Origin: Hufsiella ginkgonis
GTDB taxonomy: Bacteria; Bacteroidota; Bacteroidia; Sphingobacteriales; Sphingobacteriaceae
Direction of reading: 5' to 3'
Length of the DNA stretch: 64,000 nt
Assembly (NCBI RefSeq): GCF_009834915.1
Contig: NZ_WVHS01000003.1
Coordinates: 310,001 to 374,000 of the forward strand
Numbering within the stretch: the stretch's first letter is position 1; each line of letters opens with the position of its first letter. Shown one piece after another: positions 12,831-52,808 of the stretch. The position numbers were made by a program, and so were the translations under genes. The notes beneath the pieces were generated by a model that made no database searches, was not told the DNA's origin, and saw only the letters and a list, made by a program, of their open reading frames with translations.

Positions 12831-14036
12831 CTATAACGGGGCCGGTAGCGGTTTGCCGGCATCCAGCTTTTTAAGACGCAGCAGTGCCTCGATAAAGTAA
12901 TAGTCGGCATAGTTGATCGAGGCATCTATTTCCGTTCCGTTTGGTTTGTGGCCGGTGGAATGCAGGAGAAATGCCGAATTCTCCCCGTTGCTCAGGTACC
13001 GGCTAGACGATAGCTCAGCAAGCATCCGTGTGGCTTTCTTCCGGTAATTTTTCGCTTTTGCCGGATCGGTCACATACGTTGAAAGCTCGAGCAGGGCGGA
13101 GGCTGTGATGGCCGCCGCGGAAGCATCCCTGGGTTCATTGGGGATACCGGGTGCATTGAAATCCCAGTAAGGGACCAGGTCTGCGGGGAGGCGGTCGAGA
13201 TAAACATCGGCGACCTTTTGTACGAAGTCGAGGAATTCCGGTTTGCGTGTTTCGCGATAGCACATCGTAAAACCATAGATGGCCCACGATTGCCCGCGCG
13301 CCCACATCGAGTCGTCGGCATACCCCTGGTGGGTTACGGCTTTGATCTTTTTGCCGCTGTTCCGGTCGTACACCACCACGTGGTACGAGGTGTAATCGGG
13401 CCGGAAATGGTTCTTCATGGTGGTTTCCGCATGACTTACCGCGATATCGTATAACCGTTTGCTGCCGCCGTTTTTCGATGCCCAAAACAACAGCTCCAGG
13501 TTGATCATGTTGTCCATTATGGTATTGTGCTGCGGCCATTCCATGTTGGGTACGGGCCGCGGCCAGGAGAGGATGGTCCCTACCGCCGGGTTAAACAGCG
13601 TGGCCAGGGTATCCGCTGTGCGGAGGATGGTGGCTTTATATTCCGGGTCGCCGGTTAGCCGGTAACCGTTGCCGTAGCTGTTAAACACCTGGAAGCCCAG
13701 GTCGTGGTCGATGGCTTTCATACGTGAAAGAGGCGCCAGTTGCGACGTGAACCGCTCCGCCGCTGCTTTCCATTGCGGGTTGCCGGTGGCCTCGAAAAGG
13801 TACCAGAGCGTGCCTGGCCAGAAACCGCTGGTCCAGTCCCTAAAATCGACGAAGCGCCATTTATCGGTGCCTTTGTTTACATTCCTCGGCAGATCCGCCA
13901 CGCCGGCGGGAATTACCTGCATCGTTTTGAGCGCCTGTTTTTCGAGGTAGGTTGTTGATGCCGTTTTGCCGGCGCTGCATCCTTCCAGGATAATTACTGC
14001 CCAGGCAAGAAAATTGAAGTATCGGTTATTAGACAC
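12831..14036 (-). CDS. GH88 unsaturated glucuronyl hydrolase, lipoprotein
   Basis: This 401-residue protein has a lipoprotein signal (I-L-E-G-C, Cys20) and an (alpha/alpha)6 barrel. Family landmarks are WTSGFWPGTLW (about 69-78), the Asp in A-I-D-H-D-L-G-F-Q (Asp112) and the Asp in N-T-I-M-D-N-M-I-N-L (Asp175); their spacing matches the two catalytic aspartates of characterised GH88 enzymes. These enzymes hydrate the unsaturated uronic acid that a polysaccharide lyase leaves at the non-reducing end. Its presence implies that at least one lyase in the locus is active, and the two alginate-lyase-fold proteins at 25908 and 28670 are the obvious partners. FucP follows in the same operon. Confidence 0.92.
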   Translation of the reverse strand: MSNNRYFNFLAWAVIILEGCSAGKTASTTYLEKQALKTMQVIPAGVADLPRNVNKGTDKWRFVDFRDWTSGFWPGTLWYLFEATGNPQWKAAAERFTSQLAPLSRMKAIDHDLGFQVFNSYGNGYRLTGDPEYKATILRTADTLATLFNPAVGTILSWPRPVPNMEWPQHNTIMDNMINLELLFWASKNGGSKRLYDIAVSHAETTMKNHFRPDYTSYHVVVYDRNSGKKIKAVTHQGYADDSMWARGQSWAIYGFTMCYRETRKPEFLDFVQKVADVYLDRLPADLVPYWDFNAPGIPNEPRDASAAAITASALLELSTYVTDPAKAKNYRKKATRMLAELSSSRYLSNGENSAFLLHSTGHKPNGTEIDASINYADYYFIEALLRLKKLDAGKPLPAPL

Positions 14037-14088: not shown

Positions 14089-14117
14089 AGAGACAAGCCG
14101 GTTATGTTTTTATACTC
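14089..14117 (-). promoter_or_regulatory. GAGTATAAA-N12-TTGTCTCT box upstream of GH88-fucP
   Basis: On the minus strand GAGTATAAA is followed after exactly 12 bases by TTGTCTCT, 52 bp before the GH88 start codon. It is one of seven copies in the locus. The layout resembles an ECF sigma-factor promoter (-35 GAGTAT, about 17 bp, -10 GTC), although an activator site cannot be excluded. Confidence 0.75.
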
Positions 14118-14161: not shown

Positions 14162-15160
14162 TTACGGGATATAAGGGGCGCCCAGTACCAGTTTATCGCC
14201 AGACACGTCGGCGTTAAACAGGTGAGGAACGCGGTGGTACCTGCCATTAATCTCTTCGTGGCTATGCAGGACCATTAGCAACCGTCCGTCTAACGTGTTA
14301 AACAACATGCCGTGCCCGAAATTAGGCGGCGTGATAGGTTCTTTTTCGTGGATCCACGGACCGTCAAGCTTCCCGCCGGCTGAATATGCCACGCCCTGGG
14401 TGTACACGTTATACACCCAGCTTGTCCAGATCATGCCCAGGCGGCCTGTTTTTGTACGGAACAGGAAAGGCCCATCCGTTACTTTATTGAAAATAATGTT
14501 CCCGTTTTTGTCTTTCTCTTTGCTCCAGGGCGAGTCGCTGGCCCGAAAGAGCACTTTACCTTCGCCGATGGTGCCGCTCAGGTCGGGCTTTAATTCGATC
14601 TTTTCGACGGTGCCGTTCCAGTTCTGCAGCCATTCATGGCAGTAAACCAGGTAGGGTTTTTTGTCGGTATCTATCCAGAAAGTGCCGTCGAGCGTTGGCT
14701 TTCCTGGCGGGAGGTAAGTGCTGTCTTTCATGGGCACATACGGCCCCCCCGGCGCATCGCTTACCAGGACATGGCTTGCGCGGCGATCGATCACGTTTCC
14801 CTGCACCGTGTCAATTTTAATGCTGGTGTTGGTAAACGTGCCGAAATAATAGTATTTTCCCTGGTATTGGTGCAATTCTGCAGCCCAGATCCTTGGTCGC
14901 GGGCCCATCCAGGAACCCGGATCAGTTTTCGTAACGGCATAAGGACCCTCCCATGTTTTTAAATTGCGGCTTTTCCAAAGCATGCCGCCGGTGCCGGTCA
15001 TGTAGTACGTCGCGGTGTTCTTGTCGGCCAGGATAAAAGGGTCGCTCAGTACGATCGAGTCGAGTGGCACATCTTTCCTCACCGTCGTCCTGGGGCTTTG
15101 TGCAAGGAGCGTTACGGGCAGCAATATGCATATCCATAAAGTAATAGTCACTTTTTTCAT
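14162..15160 (-). CDS. GH43-like glycoside hydrolase, secreted
   Basis: This 332-residue protein has a signal peptide ending in LLAQ (residue 21) followed by a five-bladed propeller. The S-D-P-F-I-L motif places the presumed base at Asp40. Blade motifs RIWAAELHQYQGKYYYFG and LDGTFWIDTDKKPYLVYCHEW follow, with the second supplying an Asp, and the F-N-K-V-T-D-G-P segment sits where the family normally has E-G-P, here with Asp in place of Glu. It is divergent from the ROK-HTCS operon and has its own box 23 bp upstream. Probable role is removal of arabinosyl, xylosyl or galactosyl side units in the periplasm. The Glu-to-Asp change at the acid position is worth noting. Confidence 0.85.
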   Translation of the reverse strand: MKKVTITLWICILLPVTLLAQSPRTTVRKDVPLDSIVLSDPFILADKNTATYYMTGTGGMLWKSRNLKTWEGPYAVTKTDPGSWMGPRPRIWAAELHQYQGKYYYFGTFTNTSIKIDTVQGNVIDRRASHVLVSDAPGGPYVPMKDSTYLPPGKPTLDGTFWIDTDKKPYLVYCHEWLQNWNGTVEKIELKPDLSGTIGEGKVLFRASDSPWSKEKDKNGNIIFNKVTDGPFLFRTKTGRLGMIWTSWVYNVYTQGVAYSAGGKLDGPWIHEKEPITPPNFGHGMLFNTLDGRLLMVLHSHEEINGRYHRVPHLFNADVSGDKLVLGAPYIP

Positions 15161-15183: not shown

Positions 15184-15212
15184 GTTAACAGTTCCCGGGG
15201 CCGTTTATACTC
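15184..15212 (-). promoter_or_regulatory. GAGTATAAA-N12-CTGTTAAC box upstream of GH43
   Basis: This is the minus-strand copy of the box, 23 bp before the GH43 start at 15160. The second half diverges most here (CTGTTAAC instead of CTGTCTCT), but the first nine bases and the 12-base spacer are kept. Confidence 0.65.
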
Positions 15213-15262: not shown

Positions 15263-15291
15263 GAGTATAAAACGGGGCGGTAACTGTCACT
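15263..15291 (+). promoter_or_regulatory. GAGTATAAA-N12-CTGTCACT box upstream of ROK-HTCS
   Basis: This plus-strand copy lies 24 bp before the ATG of the ROK gene, divergent from the copy at 15184-15212. So little room remains before the start codon that a complete Bacteroidota housekeeping promoter (TTTG-N19-TAnnTTTG) cannot fit downstream of it. This favours the box being the promoter itself. Confidence 0.75.
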
Positions 15292-15315
15292 GTATAAAAA
15301 CCGCATTTCGTGCTT

Positions 15316-16200
15316 ATGACCAGTTCACCTGATACTTACCTGTTAACAGCCGATATTGGCGGTTCTCATATTACCACGGGCATTTGCAGCCTGCATGGTT
15401 CCACGGTGCTCAAACAAAGCATAAGTCGTGTAGAAGTGCTGAGCAACGGTTCCGCCAGCCATATTCTGCGGTCATGGGCGCGGTGTATGGAGCAATCCAT
15501 GGTGGCCGCCGACGGGCCGGTCATAGCGCTCGGCGTTGCCATGCCCGGACCGTTTGACTATGAAAATGGCGTTTCCCTAATTAAAGGACTTAATAAATAC
15601 GAGGCTCTTTACGGTATGAACATCAAGTCTTATTTCGCCGGGATCACCGGGCTGCCGCCCGAACGCATCCGGTTCCGGAACGATGCCGAAGCAACCATCG
15701 CGGGTGAAGTGTTCGCCGGCGCCGGCCGCGGGTTTAAAAACGTGTTGGGCATCACCCTGGGTACCGGCTTCGGCTCCGCGCACCTGGTAAATGGACAGGC
15801 GCTGGACCTAAACCTGGGTAGTGAGCGTTTCAGGACCGGCATCGCCGACGACCACTTGTCCACCCGCTGGTTTATGAAGCGTTACGCGGACCTCACCGGC
15901 TTTTCACTGCAAGGGGTTAAGGAGCTGGCCGAACTTGCCGCAACCAATAGAATAGCCAAAAAGCTATTCTATGAATTTGCTGCCAATATGAGCGAATTTC
16001 TTACCCCGGTCATTCAAAAGCTCGATCCCGAGGTCCTGCTCATTTGCGGCAATATCGCCAAAGCAAACCGGCACTTCCTTTTACCGCTTACCCATTCGCT
16101 AAGCCCGCTGGAAATCCGCATAGCGGAAATGGGGGAAATCGCCGCTATGATCGGGGCGACCGGGCTGTTTAAAGCGCAAGAAATTGCGGATCGCGTTTAA
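15316..16200 (+). CDS. ROK-family protein (sugar kinase or sensor)
   Basis: I chose the ATG at 15316 over a GTG at 15310. The 294-residue protein has the phosphate-binding T-A-D-I-G-G-S-H motif (Asp13), the A-M-P-G-P-F segment, the catalytic Asp in F-R-N-D-A-E-A (Asp123) and a G-I-T-L-G-T-G-F-G adenosine-site loop. The cysteine-rich zinc motif (CxCGxxGCxE) of most ROK kinases is absent; the region reads LGSERFRTGIADDHL. There is no N-terminal helix-turn-helix, so it is not a ROK repressor. It is transcribed with the HTCS gene, 32 bp apart. It may phosphorylate a released sugar or act as a sugar-sensing partner. Confidence 0.8.
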   Translation: MTSSPDTYLLTADIGGSHITTGICSLHGSTVLKQSISRVEVLSNGSASHILRSWARCMEQSMVAADGPVIALGVAMPGPFDYENGVSLIKGLNKYEALYGMNIKSYFAGITGLPPERIRFRNDAEATIAGEVFAGAGRGFKNVLGITLGTGFGSAHLVNGQALDLNLGSERFRTGIADDHLSTRWFMKRYADLTGFSLQGVKELAELAATNRIAKKLFYEFAANMSEFLTPVIQKLDPEVLLICGNIAKANRHFLLPLTHSLSPLEIRIAEMGEIAAMIGATGLFKAQEIADRV

Positions 16201-16232
16201 GTGGTATTTTATAGCATATTTGCAGGTAACCA

Positions 16233-19200
16233 ATGATCCTTTTGATGCGTGCCGGGAAGCATAACGTACTGCTGATTGTCGTCCTGTTCTGTTCCCTTGC
16301 TGCGGGGGCGCAAAAGAACCATGTGATCGGTTACCTCGGCACTGAAACCGGGCTTTCCAGCAGTTCCGTACGATGCATTTACCAGGACCACAGCGGTTTT
16401 TTATGGTTCGGCACCTATGACGGGCTGAACCGTTATGACGGCTCTGATTTTAAGATCTTTCGAAACCGGTATGGCGATACCACCTCGTTGCCGCATAACT
16501 GGATCAACGCCATCGCAGAAGACAGCGCCCACCTCTTATGGATCGGTACCCGGCAGGGTGCCGGTATTTTAAACAGCGTAACCGGGAAATTCACGGCCGC
16601 CTGGTATACCGGCAACGGGAGCGGAGCCCGTAAAAAGCTTACCGGGTTTATCAAAAGCATCCTGGCCGACAAAGCAGGAAATGTATACGTTGCAGCCGAA
16701 GACCTGGGCCTGGTGGTATTTCGCAAAGGAAGCGCAACCGGCATGCTCATCTCCGCCGGAAGCCAGCCCTACAACGTATCCGGCTTCACCCTGGATGGCA
16801 ATGGCGGGTTATGGCTCGCCGTAAGCGGGAAAGGATTGCTGCAATACCATGTCTCCAATAACAGGTTTACATTGGTGAACAACCATGTACAGTTCGTCTC
16901 TTGCATTCAATATGACCACGACGCCTTGTGGATCGGTACGCTGAGCGGCGTTTACAGGTACGTTATCCGTTCAAACCAATACCTGTTTATGGGCGGTAAA
17001 ACCACCGGGATGCTCGCTTCATCCCGTATCACCAGCTTCCTGCGCGCGGGGGCGGACGAGCTTTGGATAGGTACCGACGGGGGAGGAATAACCATTTATA
17101 CCATTTCGGCCGGCAGGTCCAGGATGCTGAACAGCCAGGACCGCGATTCCCCTATTTCCAGCGATGCCGTGCATGCGCTTTACCTCGACCACGAATCGCG
17201 GACGTGGATCGGGACCCTGCGCGGCGGTATCAACGTGATCGATCCGCGGCGGGCACGGTTTCAAACCATCAGCCACGATCCTTCCATGCCCAATAGCCTG
17301 GCTTCCAATTTCATATTATCGCTTTTTGAAGAAACGCCCCACAAGCTGTGGATCGGTACTGATGGCGGTGGATTGAGCATATGGAACCGGAAGAACGCAA
17401 CGTTTAAGAACCTTCGGGCCGGTTCAGGTAATTCCTCCGCCCCCGGCGGAAATTTTATTACCAGCATAAAGAGAGATTACCTGGGCAATACCTGGCTGGC
17501 CACGTACGAGGCCGGGATCAGCCGCTATATCCCGTCGGGCGATAAGTTTAAGCAATACTACGGCTATAGCGCCCAGGATAATTCCGTGAACTCCACGTTC
17601 TGGCTGATCTATGAGGACCGCGACCACCGTCTTTGGGCGGGCGGGCTCCAGAACGGCATCTACCTGTACAACCGGGCAGCCGATCGTTTCGAGTTGTTCG
17701 ACCGGACGCTCCGCGACCTGCTGGTGCTCACCGAAGACCGTTCGGCAAAACTATGGGGCGGTGCGTTTTCCAAGCTGGTGCAGGTCGACCCCGAAACAAA
17801 GCGCCACCAGTGGTATGAAATAGATAAGCCCGTGCGGGCGATCGTGGAAGACCGGTACGGCAATTTCTGGCTGGGCACCGAAGGCGGGCTCATGCTGTTC
17901 GACAGGAAGCTGAAACGGGTGGTAAAAAGATACACCACCGCCGACGGGCTGGGGAGCAACTACATCCTTACCATGCAGGAAGACCAGGCAGGTTTTTTAT
18001 GGATGAGCACCTATAACGGCTTGTCGCGATTTGATCCGCGCACGCGGAAGTTCAACGTTTTTTCCAGGAGCGATGGGGTGCAGAAAGAGTTCAATTACAA
18101 TGCCTCTCTTAAATTAACCTCCGGCGAGCTTGCCTTCGGCGGAATAAGAGGGCTAACCTTGTTCTCTCCCACAAGCATCTCGGGATCGGTTACCGATCCC
18201 AGCATCGTTTTTACGGGCCTTAAGATCAATAACCTGCCCACCGAACAGGTTTCAGGCTACCTGGCAGTCCTGGATAACGACAGGATCAGCGAGATCCGGG
18301 TGCCCTATAATGAAGCCATCTTTTCGTTCGACTTTACCGCCATCCAATACCCATCTGCCGAACAGATCAGCTATCGCTATAAAATGGAAGGGTGGGACCG
18401 TGGCTGGATCAATGCAGGCAACCTGCGAAGCGCCATTTATACGCACCTCGACCCGGGCAGTTATACCTTCCGGGTGAACAGCACCAACCCGGAAGGCGTT
18501 TGGACCAACCGCGAGATCTCAATGACCGTGATCGTGCTGCCGCCCTGGTACCGTACCTGGTGGGCGTACACGCTATATGTGTTATTCGCCGCGGGGTGTA
18601 TCTACGGCTACTTCCGCTACCGGTTCAGGCAAAAACTGCTGGAGTTCGAAGTGGCGCTCGCCCGGGTGAATGCCGAAAAGCAATCTGCCGTGCACGAGAA
18701 GCGGCTGGAGTTCTTTACCAGCATCTCGCATGAATTCCGCACGCCGCTTTCGCTGATCATTAACCCCATTAACGATCTGCTGAGCCGTTCGGCGCCACAG
18801 GATGCCGGCGACCTGCACATCATTTACCGGAACGCACGGCGGTTGCTGAGCCTGGTCGACCAGCTGTTGCTGTTCAGGAAAGCAGACTCAGGCATTTCCG
18901 GGCTCAAAGTGGTAGCGATTAACCTCAACCAGCTTTGCCGCGAAGTGTTTTTATGCTTCTCGCAGCAGGCGAAATCGGCTGCGATACACTACGAACTCGA
19001 GACTACCGCCCATGATTTCCAGGTATTTGCCGACCGGGAAAAGCTGGAGATCATCCTGTTTAACCTGCTGTCGAACGCCATTAAGTTCACGCCGCCGCAT
19101 GGCCGGGTAACGATCCGGGTCGTAGAGGAGCAGGAGCATATCAGGGTGTACGTGAGCGATTCAGGTATCGGTATCCCCGCAGAGGTCGGAAACAGGCTGT

Positions 19201-20300
19201 TCGAAAAATTCTACCAGTCGAAATCATCGGTGCGGCAGCTAAAGGCGGGCTTCGGTATCGGGCTTTACCTGGCCAGCCAGTTTGCCGCCGATCACTACGG
19301 TGGGTTAACCTACACCAGCGAACAAGGGCGTGGCACAACCTTCGTGCTAAGCCTGCTGAAGGGGCATGCGCATTTCCCCGCGGACTTGGTGAGCATGGAC
19401 GACTCCCCCGGCCCGGTTTTCCTCGAAGAGCTCTCGGAGGAGGTGCTGCCAGCCGGCCCCGAAAGCCAAACCGTGGAAGATGGTTTTAAGATCGACGACA
19501 TCTTTTCAGAAAATAAAGTGATCCTGGTGGTCGATGATGACTCGGAGATGCGAAACTACATCAAAGCGGTTTTTAGCGCCGGCTACCTCGTTTACGAAGC
19601 CCCGGAAGCCGAAACAGCCATGTTGCTGGTAAAGGAAAAGATGCCCGACCTGGTGATCTGCGACGTGGTGATGCCCGGGATGAACGGCATAGAATGGTGC
19701 GCGTGGCTAAAACAGGACCCGGCGCTGAGCTATATCCCCGTAATACTGCTTACGGCAAGCGCCTCCTCAGAAAGCAAGCTGAAAGGACTGGGATGCGGCG
19801 CCGACGATTACATCAGCAAGCCTTTTGAACGCGACCTGCTGGTGGCCCGCGTAGCCAATCTCGTAAAAACAAGGAACAACCTCCGTAACTACTTTTATAA
19901 CGAGATCACGCTGCAGTCGAACAACATCGCGATCTCGGAGGAATACAAGGACTTTTTGAAGAAATGTATCCTGGTGGTAGAAAAACACCTCACAGACCAG
20001 CACTTTAATGTGAATAGCCTGATCTCTGAACTAGGCATGAGCCGGTCGACCCTCTACCGTAAGGTAAAGTCCATGTCAGGTTTTAATATCAATAACTTCA
20101 TCCGGTTTATCCGTTTACGTAAGGCCGCCGAGCTGCTTATTAACACCCAATATAATGTAAACGAGGTGGCCACCGCTACCGGGTTCAGCAACATGAAGTA
20201 TTTCCGCACACAGTTCTCAAAGCTGTTCGGCGTAAACCCCTCCGATTTTATGAAGCGCAACCGCCCGGTATTTATCAAGCGCTTTAACGTAAAGAACTAA
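16233..20300 (+). CDS. Hybrid two-component system regulator (HTCS)
   Basis: This 1355-residue one-protein signalling system has a signal peptide, then about fourteen two-component-propeller repeats (W-I-G-T / L-W-x-G-T motifs, residues about 30-670) and a Y_Y_Y domain (about 690-765). One membrane helix (about 773-795) leads to a HisKA domain with the phospho-acceptor in S-I-S-H-E-F (His833), a HATPase domain (N-L-L-S-N-A-I-K, D-S-G-I-G-I-P, G-F-G-I-G-L-Y), a receiver with D-V-V-M-P (Asp1144) and a C-terminal AraC helix-turn-helix pair (about 1250-1350). Family knowledge: the propeller binds an oligosaccharide in the periplasm and the AraC end activates the locus. It should respond to a breakdown product of the target glycan. 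The upstream box suggests its own operon is part of the regulon. Confidence 0.95.
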   Translation: MILLMRAGKHNVLLIVVLFCSLAAGAQKNHVIGYLGTETGLSSSSVRCIYQDHSGFLWFGTYDGLNRYDGSDFKIFRNRYGDTTSLPHNWINAIAEDSAHLLWIGTRQGAGILNSVTGKFTAAWYTGNGSGARKKLTGFIKSILADKAGNVYVAAEDLGLVVFRKGSATGMLISAGSQPYNVSGFTLDGNGGLWLAVSGKGLLQYHVSNNRFTLVNNHVQFVSCIQYDHDALWIGTLSGVYRYVIRSNQYLFMGGKTTGMLASSRITSFLRAGADELWIGTDGGGITIYTISAGRSRMLNSQDRDSPISSDAVHALYLDHESRTWIGTLRGGINVIDPRRARFQTISHDPSMPNSLASNFILSLFEETPHKLWIGTDGGGLSIWNRKNATFKNLRAGSGNSSAPGGNFITSIKRDYLGNTWLATYEAGISRYIPSGDKFKQYYGYSAQDNSVNSTFWLIYEDRDHRLWAGGLQNGIYLYNRAADRFELFDRTLRDLLVLTEDRSAKLWGGAFSKLVQVDPETKRHQWYEIDKPVRAIVEDRYGNFWLGTEGGLMLFDRKLKRVVKRYTTADGLGSNYILTMQEDQAGFLWMSTYNGLSRFDPRTRKFNVFSRSDGVQKEFNYNASLKLTSGELAFGGIRGLTLFSPTSISGSVTDPSIVFTGLKINNLPTEQVSGYLAVLDNDRISEIRVPYNEAIFSFDFTAIQYPSAEQISYRYKMEGWDRGWINAGNLRSAIYTHLDPGSYTFRVNSTNPEGVWTNREISMTVIVLPPWYRTWWAYTLYVLFAAGCIYGYFRYRFRQKLLEFEVALARVNAEKQSAVHEKRLEFFTSISHEFRTPLSLIINPINDLLSRSAPQDAGDLHIIYRNARRLLSLVDQLLLFRKADSGISGLKVVAINLNQLCREVFLCFSQQAKSAAIHYELETTAHDFQVFADREKLEIILFNLLSNAIKFTPPHGRVTIRVVEEQEHIRVYVSDSGIGIPAEVGNRLFEKFYQSKSSVRQLKAGFGIGLYLASQFAADHYGGLTYTSEQGRGTTFVLSLLKGHAHFPADLVSMDDSPGPVFLEELSEEVLPAGPESQTVEDGFKIDDIFSENKVILVVDDDSEMRNYIKAVFSAGYLVYEAPEAETAMLLVKEKMPDLVICDVVMPGMNGIEWCAWLKQDPALSYIPVILLTASASSESKLKGLGCGADDYISKPFERDLLVARVANLVKTRNNLRNYFYNEITLQSNNIAISEEYKDFLKKCILVVEKHLTDQHFNVNSLISELGMSRSTLYRKVKSMSGFNINNFIRFIRLRKAAELLINTQYNVNEVATATGFSNMKYFRTQFSKLFGVNPSDFMKRNRPVFIKRFNVKN

Positions 20301-20308
20301 TCAACCCG

Positions 20309-20432
20309 ACTAAACCGCTTTAAAAGCTCAATTTCAGCGTTTTTGAACAAAAATTGACCTTAAAATGGTCGATTTGTATCCCTTTCGTTAACTGTTTACC
20401 GGCCATTTTAGCATTCGTTAATCAACGTTAAC
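20309..20432 (+). promoter_or_regulatory. 124-bp conserved module, copy A (upstream of ECF sigma gene)
   Basis: Three blocks, ACTAAACCGCTTTAAA (20309-20324), GATTTGTATCCC (20371-20382) and CGTTAATCAACGTTAAC (20416-20432), recur with identical 46- and 33-base spacing at 30729-30852. By hand the two copies agree at about 64% of positions without gaps. The third block holds CGTTAA twice with a 10-base period, as expected for a protein reading one helical turn twice, such as an AraC-type HTCS output domain. The module ends 47 bp before the ECF gene. Its first block can form a weak hairpin followed by Ts and may end HTCS transcription. Nothing else is seen in this 179-bp gap. Confidence 0.7.
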
Positions 20433-20479
20433 GCATCGGCCGCAAGCCGGAAATATTTACCGACTAATCTTATAAACCA

Positions 20480-21070
20480 TTGAAAAAAGCTTTACCATTA
20501 GCGGGCTTATGGGCGGCCTCGCGCCAGGGCGATATCGAATCGTTCTCCATGATCTACAAAAGGCTTCGCGCCGAGCTCTACGGATACCTCCTGAGTATAG
20601 TGAAAGATGACATGGCGGCCAAAGACCTGCTGCAGGACCTTTTTATTCGCCTGTGGGAGAAGAAAGAGGGCATCGGGTACATCGAAAACGTGGAAGGCTA
20701 TTTCTTCCGGTCGGCGCGCTCGCTCGCTATCAACTACCTTAAAAAGTTCAGGAACACCCGCTTCGTGATCTTAGAGCAGCCGGCGCAATTCGCGGCAACT
20801 GACCATTCGCCGGAAGACCTGCTGGTAGAGAAAGAGAACAACCTGCAGATGACGAGAAATTTTAACAAAGCATTTAGCAGCCTGCCCAAACGCCAGCGCG
20901 AAATGCTGCAGATGAAATTCAGCGAAGGCCGCAATTACTCGGAGATCGCCGGGCTCACGGGCATCCGCTACCAATCGGTAGTTAATCATTTTCACCGGGC
21001 AATGCTGCACCTGCGTACCGAGCTTGCCGGTGGCCAGCAGCCCGAACGGTCGTTTAACGTAGCGATATGA
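20480..21070 (+). CDS. Orphan ECF-type RNA polymerase sigma factor
   Basis: This 196-residue protein has a sigma-70 region 2 (about 15-95, with D-L-L-Q-D-L-F-I-R-L-W and Y-F-F-R-S-A-R-S-L-A-I-N-Y) and a region 4 helix-turn-helix (about 130-185, LPKRQREMLQMKF...YSEIAGLTGI). The start must be the TTG at 20480: an in-frame stop lies 13 bases upstream and the first ATG would remove part of region 2. No FecR-type anti-sigma gene follows; instead a LacI gene lies 21 bp downstream. In Bacteroidota loci, ECF factors usually pair with an anti-sigma and a SusC with an N-terminal signalling domain. Here an HTCS precedes it and the 124-bp module sits upstream, suggesting transcriptional control. I propose it recognises the seven GAGTATAAA boxes. 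Confidence 0.9.
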   Translation: MKKALPLAGLWAASRQGDIESFSMIYKRLRAELYGYLLSIVKDDMAAKDLLQDLFIRLWEKKEGIGYIENVEGYFFRSARSLAINYLKKFRNTRFVILEQPAQFAATDHSPEDLLVEKENNLQMTRNFNKAFSSLPKRQREMLQMKFSEGRNYSEIAGLTGIRYQSVVNHFHRAMLHLRTELAGGQQPERSFNVAI

Positions 21071-21091
21071 GGTCTTTTTTGTGCTTATGTA

Positions 21092-22108
21092 ATGGGTAAA
21101 ATTACCGCGCGGGATGTTGCCAGGGCCTTTGGCATCTCTAAAACTACGATCTCGTTTATCGTAAACGGCAAGTCGGCCGAAAAAGGTATCAGCCCGGTGC
21201 TTACCGAAAAAGTGCTGGGCTACATGAAAGAGCATGGTTATCGCCCTAACCACTTTGCCAAAAGCCTGAGTACCGGTAAATCCATGACGATCGGGCTCAT
21301 GGTGGAAAAAATTTCCGACTACTTTTTTTCGCAGCTCGTATATCACCTCGAAGAACTGGCGAACCGGCATGGCTACCAGATCATTTTCTGCAGCACGGAG
21401 AACAACGGTGCGCGTACGCGCGAGCTCATCCGGCTTTTCCGAAACCAGGGGGTCGACGGTTTTATTATTACCCCTCCGGAGGGCATACAGGCAGAGATCA
21501 GGTCGTTGCAGGACGACCAGTTGCCCTTTGTGCTTTTCGACCGGTACCTGCCTGGTATCGATGCGGACCATGTGGTGCTCGATAACCTGGAAAGCACGCG
21601 TCACGCAGTGCAGTACCTGGTTGAGCGCGGGGCACGGCACATCGGTTACGTGGAGCTTGATTCTGAACAAAGCCAGATGCGCGACCGCAAAGCGGGTTAC
21701 CTGCAGGCGCTCGGTGCGATTGCCGGAAATCCCCGCATCATGCGGGTGCCTTTTAACAACGGGCACGACGATACCGTAACCAAGATCGCCGCCTTTATTA
21801 AGCATAACCCGGAGCTGGATGCGCTGTTTTTTGCAACAAACTACCTCGCCATGAGCGGGATGAAAGCGATGTTCGGGCTGGGGATCCGCATCCCGCAGGA
21901 TATGGCCGTGGTCTCGTTCGACGATCATATCGTGTTCGACACCTACCTGCCTACCATTACCGCCGTTGCGCAGCCTATTGCCGTGATGGCCGAAAACCTG
22001 TTCGGGATCCTGATCAGTAAAATTAAGCAAGGACCGGGACAGCCGCCCACCAGGTGCGTGATCCCGGCCAGGCTGGTTATCAGGGATTCTACCGGGCCGC
22101 CGGTTTAG
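21092..22108 (+). CDS. LacI-family transcriptional regulator
   Basis: This 338-residue protein has an N-terminal LacI helix-turn-helix (ITARDVARAFGISKTTISFIVNGK) and hinge, then a periplasmic-binding-protein-like sensor domain (I-G-L-M-V-E-K-I near 63; F-D-D-H near 275). It is read with the ECF gene, 21 bp apart, and is convergent with the GH28-like gene. It could repress or activate part of the locus in response to a mono- or oligosaccharide. Its operator is not clear: GTTAAC-rich sequence occurs in both 124-bp modules and before the GH43 gene at 15160, but a clean LacI palindrome was not found. Confidence 0.9.
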   Translation: MGKITARDVARAFGISKTTISFIVNGKSAEKGISPVLTEKVLGYMKEHGYRPNHFAKSLSTGKSMTIGLMVEKISDYFFSQLVYHLEELANRHGYQIIFCSTENNGARTRELIRLFRNQGVDGFIITPPEGIQAEIRSLQDDQLPFVLFDRYLPGIDADHVVLDNLESTRHAVQYLVERGARHIGYVELDSEQSQMRDRKAGYLQALGAIAGNPRIMRVPFNNGHDDTVTKIAAFIKHNPELDALFFATNYLAMSGMKAMFGLGIRIPQDMAVVSFDDHIVFDTYLPTITAVAQPIAVMAENLFGILISKIKQGPGQPPTRCVIPARLVIRDSTGPPV

Positions 22109-22116
22109 TGCCGGTG

Positions 22117-23637
22117 CTAATTCCCGGTGCCGCTTTTGGCTTCCGCAGCGCCGTCAACCCTAAGGAACTTAATGCCTTTTACGTGCTCGCCGATAAAGAA
22201 ATTAGCCATATCGCCCGTTTTGTACCAGGCCGGTTTTCCCGTCATGTTATCATAGATCACGCGGCCGTTGATCACCAGGTTTTCGAACGTTACGTTCCTG
22301 ATCTCCCTGCCCTGGTCATAACCCGCAATGATCGAGAGGTTCGCCCGGCTGCCATTGTAAGAAATGTTCTTAAAATGCACATTTTCAATTCCCCGCCCGG
22401 CGGAAGTGTTGTACTTGGAATTAAACATGATGCGCAGGTTAACCAGCTGGCCTTTCCGGATATCGTCGATGCGGATGTCTTCGAAGGAAACGTCCCTGAT
22501 AAAGTTGCTGTCGCCGGCATTCAGCGAAAGGCATCCCTGGTAATCGACCTGGTTTTCGAACTGGTCGAGAATATCGATGTTATGGAACCGGATGTTGCTC
22601 AGGGTATCCGGGTTCCGCGAATCGCCATGCGTGCCGATCAGCACCGGGTGCGCCACGTCCGCCCAAAGGATAGAGTTCGTTACCGTAAGGTTCGTTAGGT
22701 TTCCGTAGTAGCCCCACCGGTGGCCGTAGATGGCGATGCAGTCGTCCGCATTGCGCATAAAAACCCGGTCTATGACCACATCCGTGCTGCTAAAAATGTC
22801 GAGCCCATCGGCGTTCCCGCCCGCACTAAACGATTTGAAATTCCGGATGGTAACGCCCGCCGACTGGCCCACCAGCACACTGTACTTGTCGGGTACCACT
22901 ATCAGCCCTTCGATCTCCACGTTTTTTGAGTATTGAACGGTGATCTCATCACTCCGGTCGTTTCCCGGTAAGCCCGGGTCGCGGGGAAGCGGCTTACCGG
23001 ATGATTCCTGGACGATAGCAACCTGCGTAAGGATGCCACGCCCCCGGATCTTTACGTTTTGGGCCCGGTTAACTACGAAACTGCCCTGCACGATGGCGCC
23101 TCCCGCCAGGTAAACCGTTTTATTGGAGGGAACCAGCTTTTTCCCCGCGTAGTGAATGCCCGGGCCGTAATAGATCACGCTGGTGTCTTGCGCCGAAGGC
23201 GGGGAAACGTCGGGTGGGCTGGCAAATAAGTTCAGGTTGTGGAAAAGGTCGCCATTTACCTCGATGGAAAGATTTTTCGGTTCCGTGAGGAAAAAGGAGA
23301 TCGTATTACCCTTCACGCCCGGGTTTATCCCTTCACGAAGCGGCCGTACCCTCGCTGCATGCACCGCGCCTTTGTTATACGTAACAGAAATCTCTACCTT
23401 CCCCGAAAAATCGAAGTAAGCAAAGGAGGTTTGCTGTATCACGCTTTTACTGTTGATCACTTCCGCTACATGCGCCGGGTAAACAGGAAGCGGCTGCCAG
23501 CTCTTGCCGGCTTCCCGCACTTTTACGGTAAAGTAAGTACTCAAAATACTTCCCTTTGGTGCGGGATAAGCAGCCAGCTGCGCGGTTGCCGGTTGACCGA
23601 CGCAAATGGCGAATGCCAGGAGTACGATTCGTTTCAT
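22117..23637 (-). CDS. GH28-like parallel beta-helix glycoside hydrolase, secreted
   Basis: I chose the ATG at 23637, which gives a good signal peptide (MKRIVLLAFAICVG...ATAQ). The frame is open further upstream, to 23688, but that would run into the regulatory box. The 506-residue protein has an N-terminal beta-sandwich-like region (about 20-150) and a right-handed beta-helix. GH28-type motifs are G-G-N-A-D-G-L-D-I-F (variant of NTDGxD) and R-N-A-D-D-C-I-A-I-Y (variant of the DD motif), followed by GHRWGYYG. GH28 enzymes hydrolyse galacturonan or rhamnogalacturonan; the variant motifs and the N-terminal domain leave room for a related family such as GH49. It faces the GH97 gene, each with its own box. 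Confidence 0.8.
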   Translation of the reverse strand: MKRIVLLAFAICVGQPATAQLAAYPAPKGSILSTYFTVKVREAGKSWQPLPVYPAHVAEVINSKSVIQQTSFAYFDFSGKVEISVTYNKGAVHAARVRPLREGINPGVKGNTISFFLTEPKNLSIEVNGDLFHNLNLFASPPDVSPPSAQDTSVIYYGPGIHYAGKKLVPSNKTVYLAGGAIVQGSFVVNRAQNVKIRGRGILTQVAIVQESSGKPLPRDPGLPGNDRSDEITVQYSKNVEIEGLIVVPDKYSVLVGQSAGVTIRNFKSFSAGGNADGLDIFSSTDVVIDRVFMRNADDCIAIYGHRWGYYGNLTNLTVTNSILWADVAHPVLIGTHGDSRNPDTLSNIRFHNIDILDQFENQVDYQGCLSLNAGDSNFIRDVSFEDIRIDDIRKGQLVNLRIMFNSKYNTSAGRGIENVHFKNISYNGSRANLSIIAGYDQGREIRNVTFENLVINGRVIYDNMTGKPAWYKTGDMANFFIGEHVKGIKFLRVDGAAEAKSGTGN

Positions 23638-23675
23638 ACCCGAAAGGATCTGTGGATGTGTCATGCTATTGCAGG

Positions 23676-23704
23676 AGAGACAGTACAACGCCTGGTTTAT
23701 ACTC
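23676..23704 (-). promoter_or_regulatory. GAGTATAAA-N12-CTGTCTCT box upstream of GH28
   Basis: This minus-strand copy with both consensus halves lies 38 bp before the chosen GH28 start at 23637. Its position inside the longest open frame argues that translation starts at 23637 and not at 23664 or 23688. Confidence 0.8.
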
Positions 23705-23781: not shown

Positions 23782-23810
23782 GAGTATAAAACGGCCGGGA
23801 TCCTGTCTCT
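23782..23810 (+). promoter_or_regulatory. GAGTATAAA-N12-CTGTCTCT box upstream of GH97
   Basis: This plus-strand copy with both consensus halves lies 24 bp before the GH97 start, divergent from the GH28 copy. The 197-bp gap between the two genes holds these two boxes and no further feature I can support. Confidence 0.8.
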
Positions 23811-23834: not shown

Positions 23835-25730
23835 ATGGAAGTAAGTTTTTTAAGAACCGGCAGGGTGCTGTTACTGACCTTGTTCATTGCCGCCAGCATT
23901 GCGGACAGGGGATTTGCCCAGGACAAAAAGGTCGCCAGCCAGGTATCGCCCGACCATCATACGGTGGTCGATTTCAGCCTCGGCAAACAGGGTCAGCTGT
24001 TTTACCGGATGCAGTATAAAAAGAGGCAGGTAACCGGCTGGTCGAGACTGGGCCTTAAAACCGACGGTCCCGAACTTGCGAATGGCATTACTATCCGGAA
24101 AGTGACCAGGCGCAACCGCGACGAAAGTTTTGACTGGGCGCTCGGCGAAGATGCGCGGATAGACAACCGCTACGGCGAGCTGGTGCTAACCTGCGAAACC
24201 GCTAATACAGCGTTTAGCCTCATCACACGCGTATATAACGGCAGCTTTGCGTTCAGGTACGTGTGCAGGCAAACAGGCGCCGCGCCCGTAAAGCTGCAGC
24301 GGGAGCTTACCTCATTTAACCTGGCCGACACTTACAAGATCTACCAGTACCACGAAGAATCGGTGTTCCGGCCTATGCCGCTCGATTCGATGGCGGGCAG
24401 CGCCGATCTGCCGGCAACTCTTGTTTCGCGCAACGGCCTGTATCTTAGCATCGGCGAAGCAGAAAACCGCAACTATACCAAATGCGTAGCAATTAAAGGA
24501 GACGAAGCCAACAGCGTCGCTTTAGACTTTTACAGGGATACCCTCTACCGCGACGGGAAGATCGCCTCCGTAAAGAGAGATACCAGCGTTTACTTTCGCG
24601 ATAGCCTGGTCACGCCCTGGCGCACCATCAGCTGCGCGGAAAATGCGGTCGGGCTGCATGCCTTCAGCCAGCTGAACCTGAAACTTACCACGCCGCTCAC
24701 ACGCGAAAACCCGGTGCACATCCTGCCAGGTAAGGTTTTTCGTGTCCCCATCAGCACCGAAGGGGGGATCCAGGGGGCCGATTTTGCCGCTAAGATGAAG
24801 TTCCAGTACATCATGCTCGATGCCGGGTGGTACGGCGCTGAGTTTCGCACCAACTCCGACCCAACCAAATGGATCCCGGAGATCGACCTGCCGAAGATCA
24901 TCAGTCACGCAAAAGAGCAAGGTATCGGCGTGATCCTTTACGTTAACTATGTGGGACTTAGGCAATACCTGGATACCATCCTGCCGCTTTATAAGAAGTG
25001 GGGCGTGAGCGGCATGAAGTTCGGCTTTGTAGACGGCGGCACGCAGCAGGGGCTTACCTGGCTGGATAACGCCATGAAGAAGGTAAATGACTACGGGTTC
25101 GTGCTCAATGTGCACGATCATTACAAGCCCACCGGGTTGAGCAGGCGCTATCCTTACAACCTCAGCCAGGAAGGCATCCGCGGAGACGAAAACAGTCCCG
25201 ATGCTTTTCATAATATGGTGCTGCCTTTTACCCGTTACCTGGCCGGGCCGGCCGATTTTACCTTCTGTTACCCCAATAAGAATAACTCGTTCAGCAAAAA
25301 TCTGAAGGTAAGCAAAGGCCAGCAACTGGCGCTCACGGTGGTTTATTTCGACCCCCTGCAAGCCATTTTCTGGTACGGGAAATCCCAGGATTATGATCCC
25401 GGCGATGCCGACCTCGGCTTTTTCAGGCAGGTTCCTACGGTTTGGGACGAAAGCCGTTACCTGCAGGGAGCCATCGGCGAATCGGTGAGCGTGGCCCGCA
25501 GGAAAGGCGATACCTGGTTTATGGGAAGCGCCGCCGGGTTAAACCCGTGGAAAACAACTATTTCTCTCAGCTTTCTTAAAAAAGGAAAAACCTACGTGGC
25601 ATCGGTTTATGATGATGATGGCTCGGGAGGGATCGCTGTTCGTACGCTGCGCGTGAAATGCGGAGAGCAGTTCCCGGTAAACCTCGCGGAAAAAGGCGGC
25701 CAGGCGGTTGTTTTCCGCATAGCGGAATAA
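23835..25730 (+). CDS. GH97 glycoside hydrolase, secreted
   Basis: This 631-residue protein has a signal peptide ending near FAQ (residue 29), an N-terminal beta-super-sandwich (about 35-290) and a TIM barrel (about 300-545) with GH97 landmarks: STEGGIQGADFAAKM, YIMLDAGWYG, GVILYVNYVG, GMKFGFVDGG, NVHDHYKPTGLSRRYP and EGIRGDEN. It ends in a small beta-domain. GH97 contains calcium-dependent alpha-glucosidases and alpha-galactosidases, both inverting and retaining; the GxD pattern in F-G-F-V-D would suit a retaining nucleophile, but I cannot decide safely. It probably removes terminal alpha-linked sugars from oligosaccharides in the periplasm. Confidence 0.9.
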   Translation: MEVSFLRTGRVLLLTLFIAASIADRGFAQDKKVASQVSPDHHTVVDFSLGKQGQLFYRMQYKKRQVTGWSRLGLKTDGPELANGITIRKVTRRNRDESFDWALGEDARIDNRYGELVLTCETANTAFSLITRVYNGSFAFRYVCRQTGAAPVKLQRELTSFNLADTYKIYQYHEESVFRPMPLDSMAGSADLPATLVSRNGLYLSIGEAENRNYTKCVAIKGDEANSVALDFYRDTLYRDGKIASVKRDTSVYFRDSLVTPWRTISCAENAVGLHAFSQLNLKLTTPLTRENPVHILPGKVFRVPISTEGGIQGADFAAKMKFQYIMLDAGWYGAEFRTNSDPTKWIPEIDLPKIISHAKEQGIGVILYVNYVGLRQYLDTILPLYKKWGVSGMKFGFVDGGTQQGLTWLDNAMKKVNDYGFVLNVHDHYKPTGLSRRYPYNLSQEGIRGDENSPDAFHNMVLPFTRYLAGPADFTFCYPNKNNSFSKNLKVSKGQQLALTVVYFDPLQAIFWYGKSQDYDPGDADLGFFRQVPTVWDESRYLQGAIGESVSVARRKGDTWFMGSAAGLNPWKTTISLSFLKKGKTYVASVYDDDGSGGIAVRTLRVKCGEQFPVNLAEKGGQAVVFRIAE

Positions 25731-25755: not shown

Positions 25756-25784
25756 GAGTATAAACTATTTCCCTCCCTGTCTTA
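25756..25784 (+). promoter_or_regulatory. GAGTATAAA-N12-CTGTCTTA box upstream of lyase operon
   Basis: This plus-strand copy starts 26 bp after the GH97 stop and ends 123 bp before the lyase-like gene at 25908. It is the only copy far from its gene; the extra distance forms a leader with a strong hairpin (25849-25869). Confidence 0.75.
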
Positions 25785-25907: not shown

Positions 25908-27563
25908 ATGAAAACACAAAAAAAGGCAATGGTAGTATGTCTCTTCTTACTCTCATTGGGATGCAAAAAAGAGATCCGGACAGTTGACCCGGGAGAAAAC
26001 AAAAACGTGTTAAACGCAAAAAACGGCAACGCTAAAATCGCGGCGATCAGCCACATCGGTGGTCTGCTGCATACGGAAGCCGATTTTGAGCGTATGCGGG
26101 TAAAGGTGAATGCCAACGCGCAGCCGTGGAAAGGCAGTTACGACCTCCTGGCAGCATCGGAGTATTCGGCGTCTACGTGGACATCACACGCTACCTCCAT
26201 CATTATCCGCGGGGGCACCGGCGACAACGTGGCAACTTTATACCGCGACGTTGCCGCCGCCTACCAGAATGCCCTGCTCTGGAAGATCACCGGCAATACG
26301 GCGCATGGAGATGCCGCGCGCGACATCCTGAACGGCTGGGGGAGCACGCTGACACAGATCAACGGCAATGCCGACCGATTTTTAGCGGCAGGCATTTTCG
26401 GCTACCAGCTGGCCAATACCGCTGAAATGATGCGGGGCTACAGCGGCTTTAACGTTGCGGCATTTCAAACGATGCTGCTCAACGTTTTTTACGTGAGAAA
26501 TAATGATTTCCTGGTGAACCACAACACTGCCTGCATCACCAATTACTGGGCAAACTGGGATCTTTGCAACATGGCATCGATCCTGGCGATCGGCGTTTTT
26601 TGCGACGACCAGGCAAAAGTCGATCAGGCCATCAACTATTTCAAAACGGGCGCAGGAAATGGCGCGATCATGAACGCCGTTCCTTTCCTGCACGCGGGCG
26701 GGTTGGGGCAGTGGCAGGAGAGCGGCCGCGACCAGGGACATTGCCTGCTGGGCGTAGGCCTGATGGGATCGTTCTGCGAAATGGCCTGGAACCAGGGCCT
26801 GGATATGTACGGCTATAGTAGCAGCCGTTTTATGCAGGGCGCAGAATATGTGGCCAGCTATAACAATGGCAATACCGTGCCTTTTACCACCTATAACTGG
26901 GGCAGTGGCACTAACTGCGCGCCGATGTCGCAAACCGTAATTTCTGCCGCCGGGCGGGGAGAGCTCAGGCCGATCTACGAGATGATCTATAACCATTACG
27001 CCAACCGGATGGGGCAGCCTGTTCCCAACAGCTCGGCGCGTGCCGCACTGCACCGGCCAGAAGGCGGTCCGGGCGGGCATGCTACTACGTTTGACCAGCC
27101 AGGCTATGGCTCGCTCACTTTTTACCGGGACGCAAGCACGCGTCCCATTGCCAATGGCACTTACAGCCTTAAAAGTCGTGCAACCGGCAAAATGCTCGAT
27201 AACCTGGGCGCCACCACCAATGGTGCTGTAATGGGACAGTGGGCAGACGGTACCAGCAACAACCAGAAATGGGTAGTTACCTACGCTAACGGTTACTATA
27301 AGCTAAGCTGTGTTACCGGCGGGAGATACCTCGATAGCGGGGGCAACACGACCAACGGCTCTACCGTGGTGCAATGGGCAAGCGGCAGCAGCATCAACCA
27401 GCAATGGAGCATCGTAGACGTGGGCGGTGGTTATTACAAGATATTTAACCGGGCCAATGGCAAATGCCTCGACACCGGCGGCGGCACTACAGACGGGTCG
27501 CAAATGAAATTTTACCCCACCAGTACCAGCAACAACCTGCAATGGAGCTTTGTGGCACCTTAA
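25908..27563 (+). CDS. Alginate-lyase-fold lipoprotein with ricin-type (CBM13-like) domain
   Basis: This 551-residue protein has a lipoprotein signal (L-S-L-G-C). An (alpha/alpha)-toroid domain of the alginate lyase type (PF05426-like, about 45-400) includes the conserved Q-E-S-G-R-D-Q-G-H segment, the N-H-N-T-A-C-I-T-N-Y-W-A-N-W-D stretch and Y-N-N-G-N-T-V-P-F. A C-terminal beta-trefoil (about 415-551) shows three Q-x-W-type repeats (NNQKW, INQQW, NLQW) of the ricin/CBM13 kind and should bind carbohydrate. Families with this fold (PL5, PL38 and unclassified) cleave alginate, glucuronan or other uronans by elimination. Together with GH88 it implies a uronate-containing substrate. It heads a three-gene operon. 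Lyase activity is inferred. Confidence 0.85.
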   Translation: MKTQKKAMVVCLFLLSLGCKKEIRTVDPGENKNVLNAKNGNAKIAAISHIGGLLHTEADFERMRVKVNANAQPWKGSYDLLAASEYSASTWTSHATSIIIRGGTGDNVATLYRDVAAAYQNALLWKITGNTAHGDAARDILNGWGSTLTQINGNADRFLAAGIFGYQLANTAEMMRGYSGFNVAAFQTMLLNVFYVRNNDFLVNHNTACITNYWANWDLCNMASILAIGVFCDDQAKVDQAINYFKTGAGNGAIMNAVPFLHAGGLGQWQESGRDQGHCLLGVGLMGSFCEMAWNQGLDMYGYSSSRFMQGAEYVASYNNGNTVPFTTYNWGSGTNCAPMSQTVISAAGRGELRPIYEMIYNHYANRMGQPVPNSSARAALHRPEGGPGGHATTFDQPGYGSLTFYRDASTRPIANGTYSLKSRATGKMLDNLGATTNGAVMGQWADGTSNNQKWVVTYANGYYKLSCVTGGRYLDSGGNTTNGSTVVQWASGSSINQQWSIVDVGGGYYKIFNRANGKCLDTGGGTTDGSQMKFYPTSTSNNLQWSFVAP

Positions 27564-27632
27564 ATACCTAGCGGGAGCGAGTTTGCCACATAAAATCAGC
27601 AATTTAGGGTGTCCGATTATAAATACAGACCA

Positions 27633-28658
27633 ATGATTAACATGACCACTACTTTTCACCGGCTGCTCCTGGTTGTTTCCTGGCTTTTTATAGGGCAAAC
27701 CGCTTTCGCGCAAAAGCCCGCTGCCATTTACCCTGGCGAACTTTGGCCCGATAGCGAAGGCAACCACATACAGGCACATGGCGGCGGCATCCTCAAGATC
27801 AAAAAAACCTATTACTGGTATGGTGAAGAACGCCGGAAAGGCCTCGACCCCGATTTCAGGTACGTTAGCTGTTATGCATCTGACGACCTGGTGCACTGGA
27901 AATTTAAAGGCGATGCGCTCAAGCTCTCCGAACCCGACAGTGCCGGCAAAACCTGGGTGCTCGAACGTCCCAAAGTATTTTACAACGGCAAAACGAAGAA
28001 GTTCGTGATGTACTTCCACCTCGACGGACCCGGCCCGGAAGGAGGGCGGTCATCATACAAGCTTGCACGGGTAGGTACCGCCATCAGCGATAAGCCGGAA
28101 GGTCCGTTCACATATGTGAGGAGCTTCCGGCCTCTCGGCCTCGAAAGCCGGGATATCGGGCAGTTTGTAGACGATGACGGCTCGGCCTACCTGGTGTTCG
28201 AGAGCAGGCCCTCGAAAGGCTTCTACATTGCCAGTCTGTCTGCAGATTACCTGAACGTGGAAAAAGAAGTGAGCTTTATCAGATCGCCGTTGGAGGGAGG
28301 CGCCATCGTGCATTATGAAGGGCTGTATTATGCCATCGGCTCTGCATTAACGGGCTGGCGCGCCAATCCCAATAAATACGCTACCGCCACCTCGCTGGCA
28401 GGGCCCTGGTCTGAATTTACAGACATTGCGCCGCCGGAAGCCAATACCTACGGATCCCAATCGACCATGATGGTGAAGGTGACGGGTACCAAAACCACTA
28501 CTGTGATCTTCCTGGCGGATATCTGGAAACCCGCTACCCAATGGGATTCCCGCTACCTGTGGATGCCGTTGGAGATCGGCGGCGGCAAACTGCGGCTGCC
28601 CGCACCCCGCCCATGGACGCTGAATATTAAAACCGGCGAAGCAGCCATTATTCCCTGA
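27633..28658 (+). CDS. GH43_24-like glycoside hydrolase, secreted
   Basis: I chose the ATG at 27633; a GTG at 27609 and an ATG at 27642 are alternatives. A signal peptide ends in AFAQ. The propeller lacks the usual N-terminal D-P-x-x-F catalytic motif. Instead it has Q-A-H-G-G-G-I-L-K-I-K-K-T-Y-Y-W-Y-G-E, as in GH43 subfamily 24 exo-beta-1,3-galactanases, in which the standard base is known to be missing. W-V-L-E-R-P-K and S-R-D-I-G-Q-F-V-D-D-D-G segments follow the same pattern. The subfamily trims beta-1,3-galactan backbones of arabinogalactan. It sits between two lyase-fold genes and starts 69 bp after the first. Confidence 0.8.
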   Translation: MINMTTTFHRLLLVVSWLFIGQTAFAQKPAAIYPGELWPDSEGNHIQAHGGGILKIKKTYYWYGEERRKGLDPDFRYVSCYASDDLVHWKFKGDALKLSEPDSAGKTWVLERPKVFYNGKTKKFVMYFHLDGPGPEGGRSSYKLARVGTAISDKPEGPFTYVRSFRPLGLESRDIGQFVDDDGSAYLVFESRPSKGFYIASLSADYLNVEKEVSFIRSPLEGGAIVHYEGLYYAIGSALTGWRANPNKYATATSLAGPWSEFTDIAPPEANTYGSQSTMMVKVTGTKTTTVIFLADIWKPATQWDSRYLWMPLEIGGGKLRLPAPRPWTLNIKTGEAAIIP

Positions 28659-28669
28659 GAATACCACGT

Positions 28670-30728: not shown

Positions 30729-30852
30729 ACTAAACCGCTTTAAATTAAAAATAAGGCGGTTTTTGGCTGAAATGAGCCCTTTAATTGGATGATTTGTATC
30801 CCACGCTACCGCTAAATATCCTTCAAATTAGCCCTCGTTAACCCACGTTAAC
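30729..30852 (+). promoter_or_regulatory. 124-bp conserved module, copy B (upstream of susC)
   Basis: This is the second copy of the three-block module, with the same 46- and 33-base spacings as at 20309-20432. Blocks are at 30729-30744, 30791-30802 and 30836-30852; the third reads CGTTAA-ccca-CGTTAAC with the same 10-base period. It lies 160 bp before the first susC, with a GAGTATAAA box in between. A binding region of the HTCS output domain plus a promoter is the simplest reading. The 330-bp gap 30683-31012 is therefore accounted for by a terminator, this module and the box. Confidence 0.7.
30732..30764 (+). terminator. Terminator-like hairpin after the lyase operon
   Basis: AAACCGC (30732-30738) pairs with GCGGTTT (30756-30762), followed by more Ts. 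The loop is long (17 bases) and A/T-rich, which weakens the case. It overlaps the first block of the 124-bp module. Confidence 0.45.
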
Positions 30853-30943: not shown

Positions 30944-30972
30944 GAGTATAAAATGCGGCACAACCTGTCTTT
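30944..30972 (+). promoter_or_regulatory. GAGTATAAA-N12-CTGTCTTT box upstream of susC
   Basis: This plus-strand copy lies 40 bp before the susC start and 91 bp after the 124-bp module. It is the only transcription unit with both elements in tandem, suggesting two layers of control for the transport operon. Confidence 0.8.
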
Positions 30973-50724: not shown

Positions 50725-50734
50725 GTATTAGCCT

Positions 50735-52681: not shown

Positions 52682-52808
52682 CCGGCGACATGACTGGCGG
52701 CTATTGGCCGATAGCAGAGGGACGTGCATATTCCGCTGAATTGTGACGGAATATGTGTATTAGACCACCGCTAAGGTCCATAGGTAACAGCATTACAAAC
52801 TACTAACA

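Follow-up and report, generated by a model that had tools for sequence, protein, structure and literature searches.

A candidate HTCS-to-ECF sigma factor circuit in a polysaccharide locus of a Sphingobacteriaceae-type genome and in related soil bacteria

The window, by which we mean the whole stretch of 64,000 nucleotides that was analysed, comes from a Sphingobacteriaceae-type genome of 5.2 Mb, assembled in 25 contigs, and contains a polysaccharide locus with genes for a ROK-family protein, an HTCS, an ECF sigma factor and a LacI-family regulator (Table 1). GH88-family and GH43 genes (minus strand) are followed in order by ROK-HTCS, ECF-LacI, GH28 (minus strand), GH97, two alginate-lyase-family proteins, GH43, two susC/susD pairs and GH92; for the two proteins matching the alginate-lyase family, PDB matches cover accessory domains only. 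Pfam domains and a genome-wide check of FecR genes confirmed the starting point of a first-pass annotation, namely that ROK, HTCS, LacI and an ECF lacking an anti-sigma partner lie together in one locus. The HTCS combines a periplasmic propeller, HisKA/HATPase domains, a receiver and an AraC-type HTH in one protein, with a membrane segment at about residues 776-794 and the phosphoacceptor H within SHEFRTPL (motif start at residue 832); its gene begins 32 bp after that of the ROK protein. The ECF contains sigma regions 2 and 4 only. LacI is probably co-transcribed with ECF, because only 21 bp separate the two genes. Beyond GH92, where the locus ends, lies a second LacI-family gene on the minus strand (43866-44897), and tandem copies of a 7-nt TATCAGC-like unit occur at window positions 50719-50809, as well as at 52805 and 54207.

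Table 1. Genes and candidate regulatory elements of the locus, in positions of the window.
Feature	Position	Strand	Evidence or downstream genes
ROK-family protein (sugar kinase-like)	15310-16200	+	Pfam ROK 5e-13; first gene of ROK-HTCS unit
HTCS	16233-20300	+	Pfam Reg_prop, Y_Y_Y, HisKA, HATPase_c, Response_reg, HTH_18
ECF sigma factor, 196 aa	20480-21070	+	Pfam Sigma70_r2, Sigma70_r4_2; PDB matches are ECF sigma factors
LacI-family regulator	21092-22108	+	Pfam LacI, Peripla_BP_3
Candidate HTCS-dependent promoter module of ECF	20310-20432	+	Alignments, nhmmer, genome-wide model search
CTAAACCGCTTTAAA of ECF module	20310-20324		
Direct repeats of ECF module	begin at 20344 and 20365		
-7-like box CATTTTAGC of ECF module	20404-20412		
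CGTTAATCAACGTTAAC / CGTTAAYCMACGTTAAC element of ECF module	20416-20432		
Second module copy, upstream of susC	30730-30852	+	nhmmer E 3.7e-4 (held out of model); 23.0 bits genome-wide
CTAAACCGCTTTAAA of susC module	30730-30744		
Other copy of CGTTAATCAACGTTAAC / CGTTAAYCMACGTTAAC element, susC module	30836-30852		
Candidate ECF promoter box	14091-14117	-	GH88/GH105-family hydrolase gene 12831-14036
Candidate ECF promoter box, TGTT variant	15186-15212	-	GH43 gene 14162-15160
Candidate ECF promoter box	15263-15289	+	ROK-HTCS unit (candidate positive feedback)
Candidate ECF promoter box	23678-23704	-	GH28 gene 22117-23688
Candidate ECF promoter box	23782-23808	+	GH97 gene 23835-25730
Candidate ECF promoter box	25756-25782	+	Lyase/ricin-lectin, GH43 and lyase genes 25908-30682
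Candidate ECF promoter box	30944-30970	+	susC/susD operon, 31013 on

Two kinds of cis-element accompany these genes. A seven-copy box had been reported before the enzyme genes, susC and the ROK-HTCS unit, and the pattern GAGTATAAA-N12-YTGTY indeed has exactly seven exact matches in the whole 5.2-Mb genome, all within this locus and each directed towards a gene. When one mismatch was allowed, three further sites appeared genome-wide, versus nine for the reversed control. Divergent pairs of boxes occupy two of the intergenic regions. Each box consists of two short blocks with a fixed spacer, in a single orientation and with a start codon close by, which is the shape of an ECF promoter, that is, a two-part -35/-10-type element with a spacer of about 16 nt before the target genes (GAGTAT-N16-TGTC). 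The long exact form GAGTATAAA was rejected as a family-wide motif, since it is too strict; the common core is GAGTAT-N16-TGTC.

The other element is a module located before ECF and susC. Both placements given by the first-pass annotation hold; its length is 123 bp at both sites, rather than 124 bp as claimed. The two copies contain the same sub-elements in the same order. CTAAACCGCTTTAAA, which does not differ between them, comes first and is followed by a pair of imperfect direct repeats spaced about 21 nt, by the -7-like CAnnTTAGC and by CGTTAAYCMACGTTAAC. Several relatives likewise have CTAAAnnnnTTTAG-like sequences, comparable to CTAAACCGCTTTAAA, ahead of the operator. An operator model built from the ECF-upstream regions of 14 loci, with the susC copy left out, finds only two sites in the genome, at ECF (43.8 bits) and, more weakly, at susC (23.0 bits), with the next match at 13.2 bits. 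Two repeats of about 16 nt with a period of about 21-22 nt precede ECF in 22 loci, and the module has, by comparison of sequences, the character of a direct-repeat operator of the HTCS type and includes a -7-like box. In B. thetaiotaomicron, predicted HTCS sites are likewise direct repeats, such as 16-bp sites with a 5-bp spacer, and share the form of the operator found here (PMC3878776).

The 17-bp element CGTTAAYCMACGTTAAC, which includes a 10-bp direct repeat, has only two copies in the genome, each directly after the -7-like box of a module. It is a candidate repressor site, perhaps for LacI, and LacI may act there. Relatives of LacI are encoded in 13 of 29 related loci, in none of them adjoining ECF, and LacI as a conserved tier of regulation was therefore ruled out. 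The first-pass annotation had counted LacI in the cascade; its gene does lie in the locus and is likely to be co-transcribed with ECF, but nothing links it to the cascade.

When 400 genomes of the family were searched with the ECF protein, 31 proved positive, and a comparison was made of 29 related loci, each about 40 kb long. The HTCS gene, in one case a fragment, adjoins ECF in 23 of the 29, so that of the order HTCS-ECF-LacI with its boxes, which had been put forward as something to look for elsewhere, the HTCS-ECF adjacency and the boxes recur and LacI beside ECF does not. When each locus was searched alone and de novo, the best upstream dyad was GAGTAT-N16-TGTC or a register shift of it in 14 of the 29 related loci and in the window. 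The 30 loci hold 104 boxes, of which 102 precede an ORF on their own strand and none falls inside an ORF; the reversed pattern matched once, inside an ORF. Genome-wide, ECF-positive genomes carry a mean of 9.3 boxes versus 2.8 in 80 ECF-negative genomes from the first 120 in the list (p 7e-14), statistics that rest on genomes picked by ECF similarity and in part closely related; reversed-control counts were similar (5.8 and 5.1, respectively). Genes linked to boxes across loci include GH97, GH28, GH88/105, lyases, susC, LacI, ROK and the HTCS unit. The HTCS unit has a box ahead of it in 11 relatives as well as in the window, and the positive feedback onto the sensor that had been proposed from one locus would thus be a recurrent feature.

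The operator is conserved in a narrower place. The HTCS-ECF gaps align with one another, showing two repeats, about 24 nt and then CATnTT(A/C)G, and in 22 loci nhmmer placed the operator before ECF, with hardly any other match in these loci; eight of them were not used for the model, some held-out loci being closely related to those used for training. Named genomes that have a clade ECF (defined below) were retrieved separately, several of them being the same strains, and in most of them the operator was again located shortly before ECF. Second copies in relatives are rare and weak, namely G081 (upstream of susC, E 0.04) and G269 (partial, E 1.3e-4). The ECF of G081 groups with that of the window in the tree (80% support); no recognisable box was found in the G081 locus despite this grouping. 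Because the operator stands before ECF in the relatives and has the form of predicted B. thetaiotaomicron HTCS sites, the ECF gene appears to be the conserved HTCS target and the susC copy an addition in the window's genome, to which direct HTCS input to susC would be mostly peculiar. The feed-forward loop proposed earlier can accordingly be retained as a possible description of susC in this genome, where that gene carries both box and operator; as a general design it was rejected, since the relatives do not share a second complete operator and nearly all of them have the operator only before ECF. Comparison across about 30 genomes strongly supports the two assignments on which the proposal was built, the module as a predicted HTCS target and the box as a predicted ECF promoter. 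The same two-step circuit appears to be present in more than 20 related soil bacteria of Mucilaginibacter, Pedobacter and related genera.

The question of what reads the box was addressed by comparing clade ECFs, defined as those scoring at least 230 bits against the clade model, with outgroups. Clade ECF genes have no directly adjoining FecR gene and have boxes in almost all their loci, whereas more distant ECF genes mostly have fecR directly after them, no adjacent HTCS and almost no boxes. In Chitinophagaceae ECF-fecR loci without a nearby HTCS, a box stands immediately upstream of full-length fecR in L112 (10712, exact), L122 (10929, exact) and L114 (4143, one mismatch), and ECF sequences of this type join the clade in the tree (SH-aLRT 96), within FecR-linked ECFs. 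Because these loci carry the box before fecR and have no HTCS nearby, the box appears to follow ECF and not HTCS, and this placement suggests the ancestral arrangement. The boxes might alternatively be binding sites of the HTCS or another activator in an ordinary HTCS-controlled locus, with ECF incidental: HTCS and boxes share loci, and loci of this kind are usually regulated by an HTCS (PMC10766802). We consider this very unlikely, however, given the asymmetric two-part form of the box, its fixed spacing, single orientation and short distance to start codons, its position before fecR where there is no HTCS, its occurrence beside ECF genes without an adjacent HTCS in G316 and G033, and the existence of a separate element of HTCS-type form reserved for the ECF promoter. 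It is also very unlikely that the boxes are read by another ECF. Some 30 TIGR02985-like ECF genes in the genome could supply such a reader, but all exact boxes lie in this locus, their number tracks this ECF clade across genomes, and the best-scoring paralogue in the genome is only 29% identical to the local ECF.

Whether ECF is further restrained after its synthesis depends on anti-sigma factors. The first-pass annotation had let its cascade stand or fall with an anti-sigma factor encoded elsewhere, and a genome-wide search revealed none for this ECF: no cognate membrane FecR was found nearby or elsewhere, all six FecR genes of the genome adjoin other ECF genes, and the FecR-tail homologue of the relatives described below was not found in it, so that a hidden anti-sigma factor in the window was rejected. 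The genome holds about 30 ECF-type (TIGR02985-like) genes and six FecR genes; because most of its ECFs are without FecR, other modes of control are common for them. Most relatives encode a small protein of about 50 residues (46-65 aa) with the motif ELPFxFxxKxVSxExIxxHWxxIxxxI, located between box and HTCS, often just before HTCS, or elsewhere in the locus (for example, L099 at about 5310, L106 at about 10675 and L105 at about 2174). Among 46,687 reading frames, a profile of 19 such proteins, from which FecR was left out, picked up the FecR proteins of L114 (E 2.3e-4) and L122 (E 5.7e-4), in both cases at the N-terminal tail just before the membrane segment. Of 400 genomes, 25 have strong matches, and all 25 are ECF-positive; for 19 of the 25, a box is found no more than 450 nt away. 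These observations suggest that FecR was reduced to a free tail of about 50 residues in most relatives and lost in the window's genome; the earlier description of an orphan ECF is thus true of this genome and would represent a derived state. The tail of E. coli FecR, which is cytoplasmic and comprises about 50 residues, is freed by proteolysis, binds sigma region 4 and activates FecI, whereas FpvR has a tail that inhibits its sigma factors (PMC9249621); by analogy, either an activating or an inhibiting role is possible for the small protein, and in relatives that encode it the synthesis of ECF may not be the sole control. In a gated version of the circuit, the HTCS would control ECF and susC, and either an unrecognised anti-sigma factor would restrain ECF after synthesis or LacI would gate the ECF promoter at CGTTAAYCMACGTTAAC. 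The tail-like protein of most relatives, the two placements of CGTTAAYCMACGTTAAC directly after -7-like boxes and the LacI relatives in related loci make this version possible, but we regard it as rather unlikely: the genome has neither a FecR nor a tail homologue for this ECF, and CGTTAAYCMACGTTAAC is at most a candidate LacI operator.

The best-supported reading, which we hold to be highly probable, is a conserved plan in which HTCS activates ECF, ECF activates the locus, and ECF feeds back onto HTCS; the genes, boxes and operators, their restriction to this locus within the genome and their conservation can be read from the sequences directly, and from these we infer which protein pairs with which element, in which direction regulation runs and that ECF is active without a partner. 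The HTCS would sense an oligosaccharide in the periplasm and phosphorylate its own receiver domain, and its AraC-type domain would bind the two direct repeats of about 16 nt upstream of the -7-like box, which would turn on the transcript of ECF and LacI. ECF is probably controlled by its own synthesis, because the genome has no anti-sigma factor for it. It would direct RNA polymerase to the seven TGAGTATAAA-N-TTGTC promoters of five enzyme units, the susC/susD operon and the ROK-HTCS unit, and transcription of the last would close a positive feedback loop. The operator copy at susC would provide a second, direct promoter, i.e., a feed-forward arm. As for its origin, comparison with relatives and outgroups points to a FecI/FecR-type system in which the ECF passed to HTCS control and FecR underwent reduction. 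We think it reasonably likely that a Sphingobacteriaceae clade rebuilt FecI/FecR-type surface signalling in this manner, with HTCS sensing and a sigma gene switch, and with FecR cut to a separate tail of about 50 residues that kept its sigma-dependent promoter and would either brake the sigma factor as a soluble anti-sigma or help to activate it as a pro-sigma; the window's genome would have gone furthest, having lost the tail and added direct HTCS input to susC.

HTCS and ECF are usually treated as alternative controls of such loci, and here they are proposed to form one circuit, each tier of which has genome-exclusive cis-elements. Prediction of ECF promoters is a challenging task (PMC3878776), and for one group of Bacteroidota ECFs the boxes offer a concrete promoter consensus. 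The feedback predicts amplification and possibly switch-like induction. The probable course of evolution, in which proteolytic surface signalling gave way to a transcriptional cascade, is testable in cultivable strains that have such a locus, for example Mucilaginibacter rivuli HMF5004 or Pedobacter panaciterrae LMG 23400.

Several known systems resemble parts of this circuit. Bacteroides HTCS loci, such as those of HTCS_Man and HTCS_Rgu in B. thetaiotaomicron, share the HTCS domain order, the direct-repeat operators and the place of the gene within the locus; their operators stand before transport and enzyme operons, whereas here the operator is almost confined to the ECF gene (PMC3878776). 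Bacteroidota ECF-sigma/FecR-type loci have a TIGR02985-like ECF, and the outgroup members have the order ECF-fecR-susCD with the same box (PMC3878776, PMC10766802); in the circuit described here, by contrast, there is no membrane anti-sigma factor, the HTCS would do the sensing, and FecR is absent (window) or represented by its tail only (relatives). With E. coli FecI/FecR (PMC9249621) the likeness lies in the tail of about 50 residues, since the window's relatives encode a protein of similar size that is homologous to the FecR tails of the nearest outgroup; proteolysis frees the tail in E. coli, whereas a separate gene encodes it in relatives and none does so in the window's genome. The first-pass annotation knew of no system wired in this way, and we found no description of HTCS-over-ECF control in polysaccharide loci in the literature searched, which takes in few subscription journals; control of an ECF gene by a two-component system is, however, already known from Streptomyces coelicolor SigE/CseBC and SigQ/AfsQ1Q2 (PMC8999054). 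As is proposed here, a sensor kinase pathway there turns on an ECF gene without an anti-sigma factor, but the sigma factors are actinobacterial ECF39 members, kinase and regulator are separate proteins, and the regulons concern the cell envelope and antibiotics, in contrast to the one-protein hybrid and single-locus catabolic regulon proposed here. The proposed circuit would therefore belong to an already known kind, a two-component system acting on an ECF gene, and would be set apart by its use of an HTCS, its single-locus catabolic regulon, its feedback and its FecR remnant.
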